Below are positions 9,069 through 24,607 of a stretch of DNA of 25,510 nt, in pieces (position 1 is the stretch's first letter; each line of letters opens with the position of its first letter). Source of the DNA: a virus; the IMG/VR virus record IMGVR_UViG_3300017739_000095, positions 1-25,510 of that record. One strand, given 5' to 3'. Under the pieces are notes generated by a model, which saw nothing but the letters and a program-made list of their open reading frames with translations, searched no databases and was not told the origin of the DNA. The translations under genes and the position numbers were made by a program.

Positions 9069-10508
9069 ATGTCACAAATCCCAACGGAAGTTTTAAAATA
9101 CGAATTAAGAAAGTTTCAAATAAAAGTGGCCGAGGAGTCCCGTTCCTCCTACCTTACATTTGTAAAAAAAGTTTGGCCTGACTTTATTGCAGGTTCACAT
9201 CACAAAATTTTTGCACAAAAATTAGAAGACGTTTCACGTGGAAAGATAAAAAGATTAATTGTTAACATGCCACCAAGACATACAAAGTCTGAGTTTGCTT
9301 CACATTTATTTCCTGCGTGGATGATGGGTAAGAATCCTAAGCTAAAAATTATACAAACTACTCACACAGCAGAGCTGTCATATAACTTTGGTAGAAAGGT
9401 TCGTAACTTGTTTGAGCAAGATGAATTTAAAGAAGTATTTTCTGATGTAACACTATCTCAAGATTCTAAGGCAGCAGGTCGTTTTACAACAAACAAGGGC
9501 GGCGAATATTTTGCTGCTGGTGTAGGAGGAGCAATCACAGGACGTGGTGCAGATTTATTAATTATTGATGACCCACACTCGGAGCAAGATGCCCTGTCAC
9601 AAACAGCACTAGACAATGCTTACGAATGGTATACCTCGGGCCCCCGCCAACGTCTCCAGCCTGGTGGCTCTATCGTCATTGTTATGACCAGATGGTCCAC
9701 GAAAGACCTAACAGGAAAATTAATGAACAATCAAACAAATCCAAATGCCGACCAGTGGGACGTGGTTGAGTTTCCTGCAATCTTGAACGAAGAACCACTA
9801 TGGCCTGAGTTTTGGAAACTATCAGAGCTAGAAGGTGTCAAAGCATCTTTATCCGAACAAAAATGGCAAGCTCAATGGCAACAAAATCCTGTATCCGAAG
9901 AAGGATCAATTATTAAACGAGAATGGTGGCAGATGTGGGGTAATGAAAAGATACCAGATCTTATGCATATTATTCAATCATATGATACAGCTTTTAGTAA
10001 ACGTGAGACGGCAGACTTTAGTGCTATCACAACGTGGGGTGTATTTCGACCCGTGGAACACGGACCACCGCACATTATACTTCTTGCTATGCGTAAAGGC
10101 AGATGGGACTTTCCTGATTTAAAAAGGATTGCTTTAGAAGAATATCAATACTGGGAACCCGAAACAATTTTAGTTGAAGCAAAAGCTTCTGGTATGCCGC
10201 TTACACACGAACTACGACAAGTGGGTATACCTGTTGTAACCTATACACCAAGCAAAGGTAATGATAAGTTTGTTCGTGTAAACTCTGTAGCTCCTATTTT
10301 TGAAGCTGGACAAGTATGGGCGCCAGATGAACGCTGGGCAGAAGAAGTTATTGAAGAATGCGCTGCTTTCCCTTATGGTGATCATGACGATTTAGTTGAC
10401 TCAACGACGCAGGCGTTGTTGCGATTCAGACAAGGTAACTTCATACAATTGGAGTCAGACTATACTGATGAACCTACATACATAGAACAACGAGAATATT
10501 ACGGATGA
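9069..10508 (+). CDS. terL: Terminase large subunit
   Basis: The 479-residue protein is the packaging motor: an N-terminal ATPase pumps DNA into the prohead and a C-terminal RNase H-like nuclease cuts it. Walker A is MPPRHTKSE (67-75), Walker B LLIIDDP (163-169) and the coupling segment VMTRWS (205-210). The nuclease begins at D306 (SYDTAFS), followed by DFSAITTWG. A late GDHDDLVDS segment supplies further acidic residues. Length and order suit a full-length TerL. No Shine-Dalgarno precedes the ATG (upstream bases CTTTTTTCAATT), and the predicted start site is so close that translation may be nearly leaderless. Its stop overlaps the next ATG by 4 nt. The matching small subunit lies far upstream at 5389. 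Confidence 0.96.
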   Translation: MSQIPTEVLKYELRKFQIKVAEESRSSYLTFVKKVWPDFIAGSHHKIFAQKLEDVSRGKIKRLIVNMPPRHTKSEFASHLFPAWMMGKNPKLKIIQTTHTAELSYNFGRKVRNLFEQDEFKEVFSDVTLSQDSKAAGRFTTNKGGEYFAAGVGGAITGRGADLLIIDDPHSEQDALSQTALDNAYEWYTSGPRQRLQPGGSIVIVMTRWSTKDLTGKLMNNQTNPNADQWDVVEFPAILNEEPLWPEFWKLSELEGVKASLSEQKWQAQWQQNPVSEEGSIIKREWWQMWGNEKIPDLMHIIQSYDTAFSKRETADFSAITTWGVFRPVEHGPPHIILLAMRKGRWDFPDLKRIALEEYQYWEPETILVEAKASGMPLTHELRQVGIPVVTYTPSKGNDKFVRVNSVAPIFEAGQVWAPDERWAEEVIEECAAFPYGDHDDLVDSTTQALLRFRQGNFIQLESDYTDEPTYIEQREYYG

Positions 10509-13500
10509 AAAGAAAAGAAGCAAAAGATAAATTTTATGGTCAAGATGATGTAGATATCTTTGAAGGTGGACCTGCTGGACAAACACTCAAAGACATAGAT
10601 CCTAATTACGGTGGTATTCAATTAGAACAAGACGAACTTATAGGAGATCAATTCTCCAGAGATCTAGCAAGATTTACGAAAGGAGTAACTGAATTTATTT
10701 CACCTTCTCCTGAAACAATAGCTAAACAAGATGAACAGAGAGCACAGAACCAAGCTGTTTTTAATGCAATATTAGAAATTACAGGAAAGGATGCAGACTC
10801 CTTTGAGGGACAAAAACTTTTATCTGATCTAAGAAGAGACTCTGAATTTCAAAAAAATTTAGGGTTTCAAGATGAAGGCATACTTGGAGGAGGAGGTACA
10901 ACAGATCAACCCATTTATGGATTATATGACATAGGTAATTTTTTATTTGGAGACGCAAGAAGAGGTCTGACTGAAATGACAGAAAAAGGCACGAAATATA
11001 AGGAGCTGCCTTTTGAACAAAAGCTTGGTATTGCTATACTACCTATAGATTTAATTGATGTAGGAGGTTTAGCTTATTTAGCAAAGACACCAATCGGCGC
11101 TCTTATGAGAGCTGGTCAAAAAACATTCGGTAAGGGATCTAAACTCACTGTCAAACAACTAGTGGATGATCCTGAGTTTATGTCAAATTATTTAGAACAA
11201 AATCCAAATGCTATAAAAACTTTAAAAGATTATGGTTTTGACATCGAAGCTAGATATGCATCAGGTAAAAAGAAGCGTGGTCCAACGCCAATAGAGAGAG
11301 ACACGGGATTGGAAATACTCGGAAGAGATTTTTTACAAGAACAAAAACAAATTAAACCTGGTGTTGACCCTGAATTAGAAAAAGCAGCTAAAGAAGCAGA
11401 TCAAGTTGTAAATAATTTTAGTCAAAAATATGAAAAAGCGTATGCATCTGGAAAAAATAGAAAAAGAGTTTTAAATAAACTTAGAAAAGATGTAGGCGAA
11501 AAAGAATTTGATAGATTAGAAAAACTTTCAATACAAAAAGGTTTAAGCAAAAAAAGAAATTTAGCACCAGAAGGATCAGTAAAAAAAACTACACCAGAAG
11601 GTGAAAAATTTATTTTAGAAAATTATGATAAAATGAGTAACAGGGAGTTACAAGCTATCATGTCATCTGATGAGAATGCCAGTAAATTTTTTTATACCGA
11701 TTCATCAGGCAATATAAATATACCACAAGATAGTTATTTTAGAGCTTACCTTGCAAATACATTAGGCCAGACCAAAGCTGGCGGTATAGGTCAGGCAGGA
11801 GGAGATCAAATATCTAAATTATCAAAAGAAGCAGATCAAAAAATTTATGATGAATTTAATATATTAAGAGAATCCGAAAATTTTAGATCAAATGATCCTG
11901 AGCAAGTAAGACAAGCTTTTGCTAAAGCTTTTACTAGTGAACAAAGTATGTCAAAGTATGCAGGCACGGATGCTTTATCTACAGAAACAAATTACCTACG
12001 TGCTTTAAATAGAAAAATAAAAACATTTAATGAAAGTCAAGGATTCGGAGTTTTTGATCCAAAAAAAGGTTTTGAAAAAGGAAGAGTTTATAACAGAGAT
12101 CAGATTCAACAAATAAATAGATTTTTAAAAGTGGGTGATGAGGTAGACGGAGATAAAACTAGAATCACAAATTTATTTGGTAAATATTTAAACACAAACG
12201 ATGTTTACAATAATTTAAAAAATAATATGCAAAAACTTGATGACAGTTTTTATCCAGTTATTAATGGAAAAGTAAAAAGAGATTTTTCTACAAAACTTAA
12301 AAGATATTTAGATTTTGTAAGACAAACATCACCAAATACAAAAGATCCTGTCAAAGGTGATTTTGGAGCTTTTATGAATGAATTTGGTTCAGATATAAAT
12401 GCTTTATTAGATCCAAATTCTATTGAGTATAAAAATTTTCAAAAATTTTCTTATCATGACAAGATTAGAGAGGAAGTAGGTAATCTTGCTAAACCATTTT
12501 TAAATAAAAGATTTCCGTCTAAAACAGGAAATACACCTAGAAATAGTATTCAAATAGCTCACACTTTTGAAAGCAGTCAGGTAGGTAAGACAGTGGGAGA
12601 AGGCCTTGAAGGTGCTGGAATGATACCTGGTTCGTATTATTTAGATATTTCAGAACTAAATGCAATACAGCAGCCTGTGTTAGAAAGCAGGGCTAGGGCA
12701 GCTTACAAAGAATTTAATGAAACTGGTAATAGATCAAAACTTGATGCCGTAAGTAAAGATTTAGAAAATATAGGAGCAGAGGTAGCTGTTGGTGAGTTCA
12801 TACTTGGAAAGCACAAATCACTTGAAGAAAAGTTTTTAGATCTTATTGGTGGACCTCCTGGATCGCCTGAAAGAAAAATATTAAAAGATAAGTATGGAAT
12901 TTTTGACGAAGAGATTGTAAATTTAGAAAAAGCCATTGAGCTTTTAAGTGAAGGTGCAAGTAATGCTGGCATTGCACAAATGCAAAGTGGAGGCTTAGTA
13001 GGAGACGTGGACGATATATTTGAAGAAGAACAGGAGCTATTACAGCCAAAACCAAGAATTACTGTAGAGTTTGGCGATGCAGCAAGAGGCAAGGTCCGTC
13101 GTTTTGGTGAAGAAGAACCTGAAGATATGGTTGATTTACCTTTATCTTCTATACAACTTGGAGATGGTCCAGAAGTAAAAGCTACAGCTGCACCAGCTCA
13201 AAAGACTTTTGATGTTGAGCCGATGGAAAATATTTTTACAGGAGAGATGGAGCAAGCAAATTTAAAATTACCTTTCTGGAAATTATTTACAACGCCACCT
13301 GTTAATGAAACAGCACCAATACCAACACCAAAAGAATCTTTAAACAATCCAACAAAGAAACAGAAAGAAAGTTTAGAACAAGAGAAAATAAAAAAACAGG
13401 AAGATGTGTTTGATCCATCACCTGAAGACAATAAAAATGTAGATCTAGGAAGTTCAACTGATGTAGCAGTTACACCGAAAACAGGGCAAGCTGTAACGGG

Positions 13501-15373
13501 TGTATTTTATTCTGATATTGAAAGAGCATTAGCTAGACCTGATACTCCAGCAATCTTTCCAAATAAAAAAGCCCTTCTTGATTTCTTACGTAAAAATAGA
13601 ATTAGAGACTCTGAATTTAGAGATTATCAACTTGAGTCTTTACTTCGTATCTACGATGAAAATACACCAATACCAAAGAAACAAGTAATAGATCATTTAC
13701 GTCAATCACCTATCAGAGGTATGCACGTGCACGCTACGGGTCAGGGGTCCGATATTATTAATCCATACGGCGAGGTTGGAACAAGATATGAAGGCTACGC
13801 AGAACCAGGATACATATCTGGCACACAACGTGAAAGAGTTTTGTATATTCCAAATGATAAAATAGCAGGTGATTCAGGTGGATATCCACAAAGTATTTTT
13901 CAAGGTGAATCTATTCAACGACATGAATTTGGCATACCTCAGCAGGATAATGCATACATTGTCGGTTGGACACGGCTCACGGACCGTAATGCTATATTAC
14001 CAACAAAGATATCAGCACCACAAACAGCATCCAAAGTTCCTGGTCTTACTCGTGAAAGAGATAGAGTACAAAGACAACTATCTGGATTGTTTGCTGAAGC
14101 ACAAAACAAATTAAATGCACAAGCACAAAGACGAGGTATACCTGTTGATGAAATACAAGCTGGTTCTTTAGAAGAAATGCTTAGCACTTATTCAGGAACT
14201 CTTAATGAAATAAGCCCTGGCCTAGTAGATCAGATGGATGAGCTTATTGTAAAAGCAAGGGACTTAGATGGTGAAATAGCAAAAGGATCTAATATTGATA
14301 CAAGCGGCGTAGTCCGTGTAGCGTTTGCCGATGAAATACAATCAGACATCATGCAAGCAGCAGCTGGTCGAAAACAAAAACTTGTAGCGACTCTTCGAAA
14401 AATTCAAGACGAAGGTAAAGAATCTACAACACTTCCTGAGTTAAGCAGAATTGGTCAACAGGCTTTGGCATTTTTTGAAGAAAACAAATCAGTATTTAGA
14501 CCACTTCGAAAATCACAAACAGAGGTGGATATAATTGGTGACAATCTTGCTAAGCTTGATGCTGAGGTAGATGAAATAATAAATAGATATATTGAAACAA
14601 GAGATTTAGATCCAGCTTCAGTAAAAAGATTACAAGTAGCATTGACAGAAAATATAGATGCAATGATAAATGACCTCATAACGATTGATAATAAAACTTA
14701 CGAAGGTTTGTTCCCAGATATACCATTTAAGAAAAGAGAAGAGTGGGCCGATGCTTTAATTAAAAAAGATTTATTTGAGTTAGCTTATAGAAAATTTGTA
14801 TTGAAAGATCCTCAAGCTCCTGACTATTACTCCGTTACACCAGATCAGTTTGTAATAGATAGATATAATTTTAAAGGTAATTCAGCTACACCAATGGACG
14901 TCAGAGCTGCAGATAAGAAAAAACAAATAGATTATTTTACAGGGAGAGGAGAGTTTTTAGGTTCAGAATACAAAGGTATTGGTATGTCAGAATTTTATGG
15001 TGGTCCAAATGCTAAAACACCAGACGGCAAGCATTATACATCTGTCATAGAGAAAATATTAAAAACACAAGCAAAATCAAACAACTCAGAGTTTACGGTA
15101 TTAAATGTACAGACAAAGACTGGAGCAAATGTTGTGTATAAAATTACAGACCAAAATGGCAACATGGTAGCAACACTTACAAATCAAAATCAAGCAGACA
15201 GACTGCTAAATACAAATCCAAATTATAGGGTTGAAAGAGTATCAATGCCAACAGACAAAAATACGACACCATCTTTTGCTATTAAAATTACAGAAGAAAT
15301 GCTAGAACCATACAAAACCCACAAAGCCAAGGGTGGACTTGTGCAGATGATTGATATATTTGAGGTAGCTTAA
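10505..15373 (+). CDS. Giant phage protein (1622 aa) with EIQSD-type domain, likely virion-associated
   Basis: The ATG overlaps the terL stop (ATGA) and the stop overlaps the portal ATG, so it belongs to the late operon. The N-terminal half is mostly hydrophilic and helical, with one mildly hydrophobic patch (about 165-200). Two YASGK segments lie within about 70 residues. Residues about 1073-1530 look like one large folded domain: a His/Gly-rich start (MHVHATGQG), an ADEIQSDIMQ core (D1276-D1281), a PFKKREEWADALIKKDL helix (from P1407) and EFYGG (from E1496). This recalls the conserved DEIQSD core of very large phage polyvalent proteins, some of which enter the host with the DNA. DIFE occurs at 17-20, 837-840 and 1617-1620, the last two just after GGLV. 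The enzyme activity, if any, is unknown. Confidence 0.8.
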   Translation: MKRKEAKDKFYGQDDVDIFEGGPAGQTLKDIDPNYGGIQLEQDELIGDQFSRDLARFTKGVTEFISPSPETIAKQDEQRAQNQAVFNAILEITGKDADSFEGQKLLSDLRRDSEFQKNLGFQDEGILGGGGTTDQPIYGLYDIGNFLFGDARRGLTEMTEKGTKYKELPFEQKLGIAILPIDLIDVGGLAYLAKTPIGALMRAGQKTFGKGSKLTVKQLVDDPEFMSNYLEQNPNAIKTLKDYGFDIEARYASGKKKRGPTPIERDTGLEILGRDFLQEQKQIKPGVDPELEKAAKEADQVVNNFSQKYEKAYASGKNRKRVLNKLRKDVGEKEFDRLEKLSIQKGLSKKRNLAPEGSVKKTTPEGEKFILENYDKMSNRELQAIMSSDENASKFFYTDSSGNINIPQDSYFRAYLANTLGQTKAGGIGQAGGDQISKLSKEADQKIYDEFNILRESENFRSNDPEQVRQAFAKAFTSEQSMSKYAGTDALSTETNYLRALNRKIKTFNESQGFGVFDPKKGFEKGRVYNRDQIQQINRFLKVGDEVDGDKTRITNLFGKYLNTNDVYNNLKNNMQKLDDSFYPVINGKVKRDFSTKLKRYLDFVRQTSPNTKDPVKGDFGAFMNEFGSDINALLDPNSIEYKNFQKFSYHDKIREEVGNLAKPFLNKRFPSKTGNTPRNSIQIAHTFESSQVGKTVGEGLEGAGMIPGSYYLDISELNAIQQPVLESRARAAYKEFNETGNRSKLDAVSKDLENIGAEVAVGEFILGKHKSLEEKFLDLIGGPPGSPERKILKDKYGIFDEEIVNLEKAIELLSEGASNAGIAQMQSGGLVGDVDDIFEEEQELLQPKPRITVEFGDAARGKVRRFGEEEPEDMVDLPLSSIQLGDGPEVKATAAPAQKTFDVEPMENIFTGEMEQANLKLPFWKLFTTPPVNETAPIPTPKESLNNPTKKQKESLEQEKIKKQEDVFDPSPEDNKNVDLGSSTDVAVTPKTGQAVTGVFYSDIERALARPDTPAIFPNKKALLDFLRKNRIRDSEFRDYQLESLLRIYDENTPIPKKQVIDHLRQSPIRGMHVHATGQGSDIINPYGEVGTRYEGYAEPGYISGTQRERVLYIPNDKIAGDSGGYPQSIFQGESIQRHEFGIPQQDNAYIVGWTRLTDRNAILPTKISAPQTASKVPGLTRERDRVQRQLSGLFAEAQNKLNAQAQRRGIPVDEIQAGSLEEMLSTYSGTLNEISPGLVDQMDELIVKARDLDGEIAKGSNIDTSGVVRVAFADEIQSDIMQAAAGRKQKLVATLRKIQDEGKESTTLPELSRIGQQALAFFEENKSVFRPLRKSQTEVDIIGDNLAKLDAEVDEIINRYIETRDLDPASVKRLQVALTENIDAMINDLITIDNKTYEGLFPDIPFKKREEWADALIKKDLFELAYRKFVLKDPQAPDYYSVTPDQFVIDRYNFKGNSATPMDVRAADKKKQIDYFTGRGEFLGSEYKGIGMSEFYGGPNAKTPDGKHYTSVIEKILKTQAKSNNSEFTVLNVQTKTGANVVYKITDQNGNMVATLTNQNQADRLLNTNPNYRVERVSMPTDKNTTPSFAIKITEEMLEPYKTHKAKGGLVQMIDIFEVA

Positions 15374-17742
15374 TGGTTGAAAGAAGAATTACAGGTGAGC
15401 CTACAGAGATAGAGGCTGAATCTATTACAGTTGAAACACCAGACGAAGAACTTACCGTAGAAAACGTTGAGATGACCGATGACGGCGGTGCTATAATAAA
15501 TCCTGTAGAAACCCCACCAGAAGATAGATTTGATGCTAACTTAGCTGAATTTATTGATGATGAAGATTTACAAATGCTTTCATCTGACCTTATGCAGGAA
15601 TACAAAGATGATAAATCATCAAGAGATGAATGGTATGATGCATATTCAAAAGGTTTAAAACTTTTAGGATTTAACTATGAAGATAGATCTCAACCCTTTC
15701 AAGGAGCTAGTGGTGTTACACATCCTTTACTTGCTGAAACAGTAACACAGTTTCAAGCACAAGCTTATAAAGAATTATTACCAGCTAATGGCCCAGTAAG
15801 AACACAAATTATTGGTGAGCAAACGGCTCAAAAAGAAGAACAAGCACAACGTGTTCAAGAATTTATGAATTACCAAATCATGCATGTCATGGAGGATTTT
15901 GATCCTGACCTAGATCAAATGTTATTTTACTTACCGCTATCAGGTTGTGCTTTTAAAAAAGTATATTTTGATACAACTCTTAATAGAGCAGTATCAAAGT
16001 TTATACCCAGTGAAGATCTAATTGTACCGTATAGTGCAACTGATCTAGCAACGGCTGAAAGAGTTACACACGTAATTAAAAGAAACGATAACGAAGTTCG
16101 TAAGATGCAAGTGCAAGGTATCTACAAAGATGTTGATTTACAGTATCAAGATGAGCCAAGTAATAGTAGCGTACAACAAGCTGTAAACAAATTGGACGGT
16201 GTTAGACCAACAGGGTCTGCCTATAAAAATGATGTTTACACATTACTAGAAATACATTGTGATTTAGATGTACCAGGTTACGAAAATGATGATGGTATTA
16301 AATTACCTTACATTGTTACAATTGATGAAGGGTCACAACAAGTATTGTCAATATATAGAAACTTTGAAGAAGAGGATTCTTTTAAGAAAAAGAAACAATA
16401 TTTTGTACACTATAAATTTTTACCAGGTCTAGGATTTTATGGCTTTGGTTTAATTCATATGCTTGGTGGTTTATCAAGAACTGCTACTTCAGCACTTAGA
16501 CAATTAATTGATGCAGGAACTTTATCTAATTTACCAGCAGGTTTTAAAGCAAGAGGATTAAGAATACGTGATGATGACAATCCACTACAACCTGGCGAGT
16601 TTAGAGACGTAGATGCACCAAGTGGTGATTTACGTGCAGGACTTATGCCTTTACCTTACAAAGAACCAAGCGCTACATTATTTCAACTATTAGGTTTCGT
16701 CGTACAATCAGGCCAACGGTTTGCTACTATAGCTGATCAAAAAATTGGTGATAGCGTTGCAGCTAATGCACCTGTAGGAACGACAATGGCTCTAATTGAA
16801 CGTGGTTCTAGAGTCATGAGCGCTATTCACAAAAGATTACACTACGCACAAAAGACAGAATTTAACTTATTGGCTAGTGTATTCAAAGATTTTTATCCAC
16901 AAGTTTATCCTTATGAAGTAGGTAAGAACGCAGCAGCGGTTTTTAAGGCATCTGATTTTGATGAACGTGTTGATATTATGCCTGTATCAGATCCAAACAT
17001 ATTTTCAATGTCACAACGAGTTACCTTGGCGCAGACACAATTACAAATGGCTCAATCAGATCCAAAACAACATAATTTATATGAGGCTTATAAAAGAATG
17101 TATCAAGCTCTTGGTGTCAAAGATATTGATGCAATTTTACCTGTACCAAAACCTGATTCACCAAAAGATCCTGGTATAGAAAATGCAGATGCTTTAATGG
17201 GCAAAAAACTAGTTGTATTTAGGGGACAAGCTCATCAACAGCACATAGAAGCACATAGGGTATTTATGTCATCAATGTTAGTTAGAGCAAACCCGCAAGC
17301 CACCGTAATTTTGCAAGCTCACATCATGGAACATATTTCTTTATTAGCAAGAGAAGAAGTAGAAGCTCAAATGAATGAAGTAATACAACAAGAAGCACAG
17401 AAATATGGTGGTCAAATACCACCTGAACTTCAAATGGAGTTTCAAAAGCAGCTTGAAGTACAAGTTGCAGACAAAGTTAGTGATTTTATTTCTGAAATGT
17501 TCATAGAAGAACAAGAAGCGATGCAAGGACAAGGACAAGATCCTTTAATTGGATTAAAACAGCAAGAATTACAGCTAAAAGCACAAGATATTCAACGAAA
17601 AGCAGAAAATGATGGTCAAAAATTAGAACTTGATGCTGCAAAACTTGAACAGCAGGCAAAAATAGCACAAGACAAGATAGATTCTAATGAAGATATTGCT
17701 CAATTACGTGCAAATGTAAATCTTGACAAGCAAAAACAGTAA
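15373..17742 (+). CDS. Portal protein
   Basis: This 789-residue protein forms the dodecameric ring at the capsid vertex through which TerL pumps DNA. Its position two genes after terL, its size and its sequence (DRSQPFQGASGVTHPLL near residue 105, QAQAYKELLP, a DPDLDQMLFYLPLSGCAFKKVY core, GFGLIHMLGGLSRTATSALRQLIDAG) fit podovirus-type portals of marine phages. The first 50 residues are acidic. The last 100 form a Gln-rich coiled coil (for example LKQQELQLKAQDIQRK), which could reach into the capsid as a barrel or contact ejection proteins. The start is coupled to the preceding stop (TAATG). The call rests on pattern and context. Confidence 0.88.
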   Translation: MVERRITGEPTEIEAESITVETPDEELTVENVEMTDDGGAIINPVETPPEDRFDANLAEFIDDEDLQMLSSDLMQEYKDDKSSRDEWYDAYSKGLKLLGFNYEDRSQPFQGASGVTHPLLAETVTQFQAQAYKELLPANGPVRTQIIGEQTAQKEEQAQRVQEFMNYQIMHVMEDFDPDLDQMLFYLPLSGCAFKKVYFDTTLNRAVSKFIPSEDLIVPYSATDLATAERVTHVIKRNDNEVRKMQVQGIYKDVDLQYQDEPSNSSVQQAVNKLDGVRPTGSAYKNDVYTLLEIHCDLDVPGYENDDGIKLPYIVTIDEGSQQVLSIYRNFEEEDSFKKKKQYFVHYKFLPGLGFYGFGLIHMLGGLSRTATSALRQLIDAGTLSNLPAGFKARGLRIRDDDNPLQPGEFRDVDAPSGDLRAGLMPLPYKEPSATLFQLLGFVVQSGQRFATIADQKIGDSVAANAPVGTTMALIERGSRVMSAIHKRLHYAQKTEFNLLASVFKDFYPQVYPYEVGKNAAAVFKASDFDERVDIMPVSDPNIFSMSQRVTLAQTQLQMAQSDPKQHNLYEAYKRMYQALGVKDIDAILPVPKPDSPKDPGIENADALMGKKLVVFRGQAHQQHIEAHRVFMSSMLVRANPQATVILQAHIMEHISLLAREEVEAQMNEVIQQEAQKYGGQIPPELQMEFQKQLEVQVADKVSDFISEMFIEEQEAMQGQGQDPLIGLKQQELQLKAQDIQRKAENDGQKLELDAAKLEQQAKIAQDKIDSNEDIAQLRANVNLDKQKQ

Positions 17743-18305: not shown

Positions 18306-18695
18306 ATGTGGCAATTACTTGCTAAACCTTTACTTGGCGTCGTCGCAGATGGCGTCAAGGGTTTTGTAGATACAAAAAAAGCAAAACAAGAATTAAAACT
18401 TACAACCATTAAAGCAACACAAAAACTTAAAGAAGATCAAATTGCTGGCAAAGTGAAGTGGGAGCAATCTGCTGTGGATCAAATGAAAGGGAGCTGGAAA
18501 GATGAAGTGGCATTAATTGTACTACTTCTTCCAGCAGTTTTAGTATTCACGCCTTTACAAGATCATGTGCATAAAGGGTTTCTCGCTTTGCAAGACCTAC
18601 CGTCGTATTATCATAATTTGTTGTACATTGCGATTTCAGCGAGCTTTGGCATCAAGGCAGGATCTAGTGCAATAGGGATGTTTAAAAAGAAATAA
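18306..18695 (+). CDS. Holin-like membrane protein
   Basis: The 129-residue protein begins with a helical, partly amphipathic stretch, followed by a charged coiled-coil-like region (KAKQELKLTTIKATQKLKED). Two membrane segments lie at about 67-84 (EVALIVLLLPAVLVFTPL) and 103-126, and the C-terminus is basic (MFKKK). Two spans and a basic tail fit class II-like holins, which form holes in the inner membrane and release the endolysin. The lysozyme gene lies 270 nt downstream. There is no strong ribosome site. A structural membrane protein is the main alternative. Confidence 0.6.
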   Translation: MWQLLAKPLLGVVADGVKGFVDTKKAKQELKLTTIKATQKLKEDQIAGKVKWEQSAVDQMKGSWKDEVALIVLLLPAVLVFTPLQDHVHKGFLALQDLPSYYHNLLYIAISASFGIKAGSSAIGMFKKK

Positions 18696-18967
18696 TGGTA
18701 ACTAAGTATATTAAGTTCAAAGGATCAATGAAACCAAAGGGACTTACCATGGCTACAGATGCTAAATTAAAACAACTTAAAAATACTGGATTTAGACAAG
18801 GAAAAGATTACGAGGTGGTCTCAAAAAAAATAGCTTTAGGAAAGTCTAGAGGAGGATCTGTGAAGAAAAAAGTCAGTAAGATGATTAAGGGCCTTAAAAA
18901 GGCATCAAAAACTCATGCAGGACAAGCAAGGACATTAAGTTCAATTAAGAAAAGAATTAAAGTATGA
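18695..18967 (+). CDS. Cationic hypothetical protein (90 aa)
   Basis: Its ATG overlaps the preceding stop (TAATG) and its own stop overlaps the lysozyme start (ATGA). The protein is strongly basic. A short N-terminal domain (KFKGSMKPKGLTMATDAKLKQL in outline) is followed by a GKSRGGSVKKKV segment and a helix with HAGQARTLSSIKK. Similar Lys-rich genes sit near the lysis or virion block of marine phages. No known motif. The GG within a basic stretch resembles those at 4394-4798 and 24092-24607. Confidence 0.7.
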   Translation: MVTKYIKFKGSMKPKGLTMATDAKLKQLKNTGFRQGKDYEVVSKKIALGKSRGGSVKKKVSKMIKGLKKASKTHAGQARTLSSIKKRIKV

Positions 18968-24091: not shown

Positions 24092-24607
24092 ATGGCTGAA
24101 AAAATAGGACCAATATTTAATAGAATTTTAATTAAAAAATTAGATCAAGCATTAGACAATGGATCTATAAATAAAAAAGATTATAATGATTTGAAAAAAA
24201 AATATTTTGGAAAGCCAAAATTAATTCAAATGGATTTATTTGATCCAAAGAAAAAGAAACAAGGAGGACTTATGGAGGCGACAAAAAGATTAAAAGCTCA
24301 AGGACTTAAAAAAGGTGGTTTTCCTGATTTAAGTGGTGACGGTAAAGTTACTATGAAAGACGTTCTTATGGGACGTGGTGTAATTAAAAAACCAAAGAAA
24401 AAAGCCATGGGTGGATCTATGACTCTTGAAGGCGGAAAACTAAAAGGTGTAAAAGATGCACCTGAAGAGAGACGCAAAGAAAAAATTCAAAAAATTAAAG
24501 GTTTTCTTAAAAGAAGATCCTTGTTAAATCCTATGGGTGGATCAAGAGGTCTTGGAAAAGTTGCAGGTAGAGCTGCAAAAAGAGGATATGGTATAGCGAA
24601 AAAGTGA
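24092..24607 (+). CDS. Basic protein with EF-hand-like calcium loop (171 aa)
   Basis: It begins directly after the previous stop. The protein is Lys-rich and has several GG motifs (KQGGLM 56-61, KKAMGG 103-108, NPMGGS near 137). At residues 79-90 the segment DLSGDGKVTMKD fits the 12-residue EF-hand or dockerin calcium loop, with D at positions 1, 5 and 12, S at 3 and G at 6. It is followed by VLMGRGVIKK. Its function is unknown. A virion protein stabilised by calcium is a natural idea for a marine phage. Its last codons overlap the next start. Confidence 0.75.
   Translation: MAEKIGPIFNRILIKKLDQALDNGSINKKDYNDLKKKYFGKPKLIQMDLFDPKKKKQGGLMEATKRLKAQGLKKGGFPDLSGDGKVTMKDVLMGRGVIKKPKKKAMGGSMTLEGGKLKGVKDAPEERRKEKIQKIKGFLKRRSLLNPMGGSRGLGKVAGRAAKRGYGIAKK

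Follow-up and report, generated by a model that had tools for sequence, protein, structure and literature searches.

A two-module protein with an EIQSD-type domain between the terminase and portal genes of marine podovirus-like phages, a candidate packaged effector

Between the genes for the terminase large subunit (TerL) and the portal of a virus lies a single gene, here called P0001, for a protein of 1622 residues; what does a protein of this size do in that position? The window analyzed was the whole stretch of 25,510 nucleotides (IMG/VR record IMGVR_UViG_3300017739_000095, positions 1 to 25,510), and its genes all run on the + strand: DNA polymerase, small genes, TerL, P0001, portal, lysozyme-like gene, small structural-type proteins, and major head protein. 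The locus comprises:

9069..10508, + strand: TerL (PHROG terminase, E 2e-113)
10505..15373, + strand: P0001, whole gene, 1622 residues in two modules (open reading frame listing, junctions, homologues)
15373..17742, + strand: portal protein (PHROG portal, E 7e-54)

P0001 is one intact frame and the sole long frame there, and no long frame was seen antisense to it. Its first 4 nt (ATGA) are shared with the end of TerL, and the final base of its stop codon is also the first of the portal gene (TAATG), in agreement with the original prediction of a frame coupled to both neighbors. The frame was kept in 20 homologue loci (55 to 100% identity), with TerL upstream and portal downstream wherever neighbors were checked, and dN/dS of the C-terminal module was about 0.05 to 0.2. 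An assembly artifact was ruled out by a 100% copy in a second locus (L008) and many homologues. Two contigs carry a broken DEIQSD frame (829 + 193 residues in L012, 606 + 210 residues in L019), which is either real decay or sequencing error. P0001 gave no match above chance in Pfam, PHROGs, NCBIfam, PADLOC, or PDB sequences, and neither the whole protein nor the C-terminal module had a tblastn match in 50,697 phage records. Below-cut-off matches to RapZ-like_N (12 of 15 close homologues), ANC1_spectrin, SpoIVA_C, and Lact_bio_phlase were rejected, those in helical parts as coiled-coil noise.

The C-terminal module could be placed in a family. Its parts are as follows:

13502..13714, + strand: FYS subdomain, residues 1000 to 1070, common to the EEIQSDWHQ family (profile match probability, 98.5%)
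13829..15304, + strand: EIQSD core domain, residues 1109 to 1600, predicted b-b-b-a-b-a-b-b with helical insertions (model, profile comparison, alignment)
13997..14308, + strand: helical insertion 1, residues 1165 to 1268, not in the canonical family (model secondary structure)
14330..14347, + strand: DEIQSD motif, residues 1276 to 1281, invariant in 47/47 (alignment of 47 divergent relatives)
14357..14704, + strand: helical insertion 2, residues 1285 to 1400, in place of the canonical Q-x-G-R-x-x-G-Y loop (model and alignment)
14723..14746, + strand: PFKKREEW block, residues 1407 to 1414, counterpart of VPDAPFKK.W (after-motif profile match, 88 to 93%)
14990..15004, + strand: EFYGG block, residues 1496 to 1500, counterpart of GM.GFYD (Y1498 in 47/47; canonical Y in 68/69)
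15131..15250, + strand: inserted mini-domain, residues 1543 to 1582, like small phage proteins of 40 to 75 residues (model, structure search)

A DNA pattern scan for EEIQSDWHQ, which is invariant in the canonical family, returned at least 120 stretches, 97 of which were used to build a canonical profile; a second scan returned at least 116 ADEIQSD-type proteins, the complete marine ones being 870 to 1858 residues long. Compared with the 97-member profile (hhalign), residues 985 to 1600 of P0001 matched with a probability of 97.8% (E 5e-12). A profile of 47 divergent ADEIQSD relatives (A2) matched a profile of 43 canonical EEIQSDWHQ members (A3) at 98.5% (E 2e-15); this match fell within the FYS-YRE block and not on the motif, and masking the motif left the probability at 97.8%. 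Taken on their own, the stretches preceding and following the motif matched at 97.8% and at 88 to 93%, respectively (profile-profile probability). The profile score was 131, versus about 20 at most for 12 column-shuffled controls, on which grounds a chance motif was rejected. Invariant in the 47 divergent relatives were A, D, E, I, Q, S, D, W1155, R1161, Q1284, W1414, and Y1498; E, H, R, E, Q, S, D, Q, P, W, and Y are kept at equivalent blocks of both families, and the polar residues E1110, H1140, R1161, E1277, Q1279, S1280, D1281, Q1284, W1414, and Y1498 are common to both. P0001 as such is no chance frame, given its conservation in homologues, the low dN/dS, the invariant residues, and a profile score far above the shuffles. 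Motif blocks in colinear order and profile similarity that is significant beyond the motif itself place it in the EIQSD family; because W-H and GRxxGY of the full EEIQSDWHQxGRxxGY signature are lost (P0001 has ADEIQSDIMQ), we treat it as a divergent relative or a subfamily and do not count it among the canonical members. By profile comparison, residues from about 1000 to 1600 are thus well supported as a remote homologue of a widespread EIQSD phage domain family.

These results bear out the original prediction of an EIQSD-type domain with a conserved flank: profile homology extends before and after the motif, a profile search of the kind it had proposed as a check found similarity to EIQSD phage domains (97.8 to 98.5%), and the blocks it named (DEIQSD, PFKKREEW, and EFYGG, as listed, and a His/Gly stretch at residues 1072 to 1085) were in place. 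Three loci elsewhere (L152, L190, and L240) encode 1086-residue ADEIQSD proteins with ADEIQSDLHKEG..YGY-like motifs, next to neighbors unlike this TerL or portal; such proteins of other phages may be intermediate between the marine type and the canonical type.

Neither Pfam nor NCBIfam has a model, LPD models included, that matches the canonical EIQSD domain; PHROGs matches it solely inside a 2564-position "endolysin" profile, and the EEIQSDWHQ family is part of PHROG 7348. It had been thought that giant phage proteins with a DEIQSD core were already described, but our search of a library of 5.39 million papers found no mention of (D)EIQSD in a phage context. The largest canonical EIQSD proteins also carry ART-PolyVal, LPD38, LPD39, LPD22, ddrB-ParB, RadC, GGDEF, and helicase (AAA_34; Strawberry-notch) domains. 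This is the domain repertoire of polyvalent proteins (Iyer et al. 2017, PMC5512222). Since no library model covers the EIQSD domain and its partners are polyvalent ones, we regard it as a polyvalent-associated domain that is nameless in those libraries. Pfam-type searches detected no cataloged polyvalent domain (LPD1-40, ART-PolyVal, etc.) within P0001, which has two modules in one polypeptide, one of them assigned to a family. The suggestion of a polyvalent domain therefore stands insofar as homologues sit in polyvalent proteins and falls insofar as this is not an LPD domain with a Pfam model.

What the domain might do was approached through predicted structures. AlphaFold models of P0001 residues 960 to 1622 (pLDDT 81, pTM 0.73) and of a compact canonical core (L036; pLDDT 84, pTM 0.80) have the same strand and helix order, b-b-b-a-b-a-b-b. 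In a Foldseek search of the PDB, the best 17 rows for the canonical core were all GNAT proteins (SSAT, 2eui), none significant (E 0.06 or worse; TM of about 0.3 or less), with GNAT-fold AHL synthases and Eis2 in lower rows. The P0001 domain had no PDB match and four uncharacterized viral ones. Single phage proteins of 40 to 75 residues structurally match part of the P0001 model (Foldseek), a part that is probably the b-b-a-b mini-domain, an insertion close to where the EIQSD domain ends. The models are suggestive, and no more, of a fold closest to GNAT acyltransferases. In the canonical family, Q-x-G-R-x-x-G-Y after the third strand could be a CoA loop. The CoA-binding motif Q/R-x-x-G-x-G/A after b4 is absent from P0001, the canonical family having GRxxGY, and the alignment shows P0001 and its marine relatives without the Q-x-G-R-x-x-G-Y stretch. 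P0001-type proteins may therefore be inactive as acyltransferases or may use other chemistry.

The other half of the protein behaves differently:

10505..12982, + strand: N-terminal variable cargo module, residues 1 to 826, recombination-shuffled (comparison with L002; fused and free versions in relatives)
12431..12673, + strand: H...N...Q block, residues 643 to 723, with H686, N719, and Q723 invariant (conserved within many N-terminal modules)

Residues 251 to 845 are nearly identical between P0001 and its relative in L002 (dS 0.11 to 0.27), while both flanks have diverged (dS 0.35 to 1.2), direct evidence that modules are exchanged. The N-terminal module also has sequence in common with free-standing spacer genes of relatives, and across at least 100 marine relatives with the gene directly upstream of portal the C-terminal module is constant and the N-terminal module shuffled. 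P0001 thus has a two-module anatomy with a recombining N-terminal module. N-terminal modules contain no recognized Pfam or PADLOC domain. One could speculate that the H...N...Q block is a degenerate HNH-like (His-Me finger) unit; it has no PDB sequence match and no HNH profile match, and assignment as an HNH nuclease was not accepted, the likeness being by eye with H..N..Q alone conserved.

Where cargo of this kind sits was clear from relatives. Portal lies no more than 63 bp downstream in 101 of the 102 listed relatives with portal on the contig. TerL lies upstream in 46 listed relatives, abutting in about 28 and in most others 1.3 to 1.8 kb (one gene) away. The closest isolates by TerL (60 to 64% identical) and portal (48 to 53%) are Pelagibacter phages HTVC027P and HTVC023P, phage psg01, and DSL-LC04. 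Their slot proteins are of 483 + 892 residues (HTVC027P), 201 residues (HTVC023P), 615 + 751 residues (psg01), and 825 residues (DSL-LC04); the DSL-LC04 protein matches PcfJ at a score above cut-off. These differing contents mark the TerL-portal interval as a cargo slot, one that recurs in the lineage with varying contents; the original view was of a site normally kept for head-assembly genes, and in this lineage the arrangement is no oddity of a single phage. The PcfJ protein of DSL-LC04, a freshwater phage, lies at L265:10344-12821 and has N-terminal GG motifs. The P0001 lineage is marine (pelagiphage-like), podovirus-like, and probably SAR11 infecting. The same phage type was seen on contig 11 (L266) of the single-cell genome AG-910-K03 from an uncultured alphaproteobacterium (portal 84% and head protein 91% identical), a possible host link.

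It is unlikely that P0001 is a head-assembly or internal-core (scaffold-like) protein that is translationally coupled to portal, aids portal incorporation or packaging, and has no action in the new host. Its fixed position against portal, the gene overlaps, and the long conserved helical insertions would suit such a role, but the closest isolates carry unrelated proteins there, or 201 residues alone (HTVC023P), a replacement which argues that P0001 is not a core assembly factor; moreover, the homologous domain occurs in polyvalent proteins with effector enzymes, and the N-terminal module is swapped by recombination. Slightly less likely again is an ejection or conduit protein like P22 gp16 or T7 gp16, forming a DNA channel and not acting as an enzyme on the host. 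P0001 is large, helical, and within the structural-gene module, as this would predict, but a PHROGs search matched it to no ejection protein by sequence, its N-terminal module is hypervariable, the protein is replaceable, and genes for ejection proteins usually follow portal.

Each module of P0001 ends in a short glycine-containing peptide:

12983..13042, + strand: internal GG tag QSGGLVGDVDDIFEEEQEL, residues 827 to 846, at the module junction (G829 and G830 in at least 90% of 31 diverse full-length relatives)
15314..15370, + strand: C-terminal GG tag THKAKGGLVQMIDIFEVA, residues 1604 to 1622 (G1610 and G1611 invariant in 47/47; tail predicted disordered)

Free spacer proteins end in DGG[FIL][AV]S[IF]EEVLEY or close variants, and DEIQSD proteins end in GG[LMV]V..(I)DIFE[AV]A or GGYV..I.E.IGA. 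A strict GG...DE regular expression was too narrow (44/136); under a broader rule, chosen after seeing the tails and controlled against TerL, portal, and other proteins, GG[LIVMFYAE] was found in the last 40 residues of 132/133 spacer proteins of at least 200 residues versus 0/39 TerL, 0/94 portal, and 2/32 others. The tail is common to four BLAST-unrelated free spacer families; independent occurrences are few, because most tagged spacer proteins are mutually homologous. Of the other proteins in these phages, which are mostly small, 28% likewise have GG close to the C terminus; the tag may therefore be something common to virion proteins, or to the lineage, in general. At the sequence level, the GG tag is conserved at the ends of these putative cargo proteins, and the invariance of the C-terminal GG in a disordered tail is as expected of a short recognition peptide. 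In T4, injected internal proteins carry a short terminal peptide that signals loading or cleavage (PMC3012670, PMC7697877). Many small proteins of the lineage (window 24092-24607 and 18695-18967; L247:10240-10732; L257:10909-11098) have GG[LI]AGRLAQRGYGKAR-like or RGGGIAKRGMGKAK-like tails, a second C-terminal motif of GG type, which may be virion-related as well.

That P0001 works in the infected cell alone, never packaged (e.g., as a TerL/portal-associated regulator or nuclease), is the least probable alternative, consistent with a possibly degenerate nuclease in the H...N...Q block and a gene that adjoins TerL, with the conserved disordered tag and polyvalent relatives weighing toward delivery without deciding the matter.

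Our preferred answer, only just probable when taken as a whole chain, is that P0001 is a two-module packaged polyvalent-type effector in a TerL-portal cargo cassette. Residues 1 to 826 would be an exchangeable payload, and residues from about 1000 to 1600 are a constant EIQSD domain of predicted GNAT-closest fold; the GG tag ending each module would direct loading into the head or mark a maturation cleavage, and the modules would be carried into the host along with the DNA, acting there before phage expression. The conserved slot and the GG tag are the sole signs, both indirect, of packaging and ejection. For P0001 we infer packaging, cleavage, injection, a GNAT-like fold, and any catalytic activity. 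A wider proposal, which we hold tentatively and rate short of probable, is that abundant marine phages keep, between TerL and portal, a dedicated recombining cassette of unrelated cargo payloads bearing a portable GG tag for head loading or trimming, P0001 being a fusion of two tagged payloads, the second from an undescribed EIQSD enzyme family.

A very common nameless phage domain (the EEIQSDWHQ and ADEIQSD scans each gave at least about 120 loci) is hereby tied to polyvalent effectors, with a proposed fold. A slot for putative effectors is identified in marine phages; the nearest relatives of these phages in culture infect bacteria of the SAR11 group, the most abundant in the ocean. The GG tag, as a short candidate packaging tag, would allow injected proteins of uncultured phages to be listed.

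Set against known systems, P0001 has the block order of the EEIQSDWHQ family (FYS / YRE / H / R / EIQSD / PFK..W / FY / IT.EM) and differs in having ADEIQSDIMQ for EEIQSDWHQ.GR..GY, two long helical insertions, the mini-domain, and the GG tag. Compared with GNAT proteins (SSAT, AHL synthases), the predicted b-b-b-a-b-a-b-b order is alike, and these are the best PDB neighbors of the canonical core, whereas P0001 lacks a CoA-loop-like sequence and the structural matches are not significant. T4 capsid-targeted internal proteins offer an analogy to the GG tag in their short terminal signal peptide; the T4 signal is N-terminal, acts with a known protease, and has no sequence relation to the tag. 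Like polyvalent proteins (PMC5512222), P0001 is very large, belongs to a portal-terminase phage, and has a domain that is partnered with ART-PolyVal, LPD, and ddrB-ParB in other phages; unlike them, it contains no listed polyvalent domain, and its delivery is putative. The slot proteins of HTVC027P, psg01, HTVC023P, and DSL-LC04 are without EIQSD, that of DSL-LC04 having PcfJ, yet they occupy the same TerL-portal slot as P0001.
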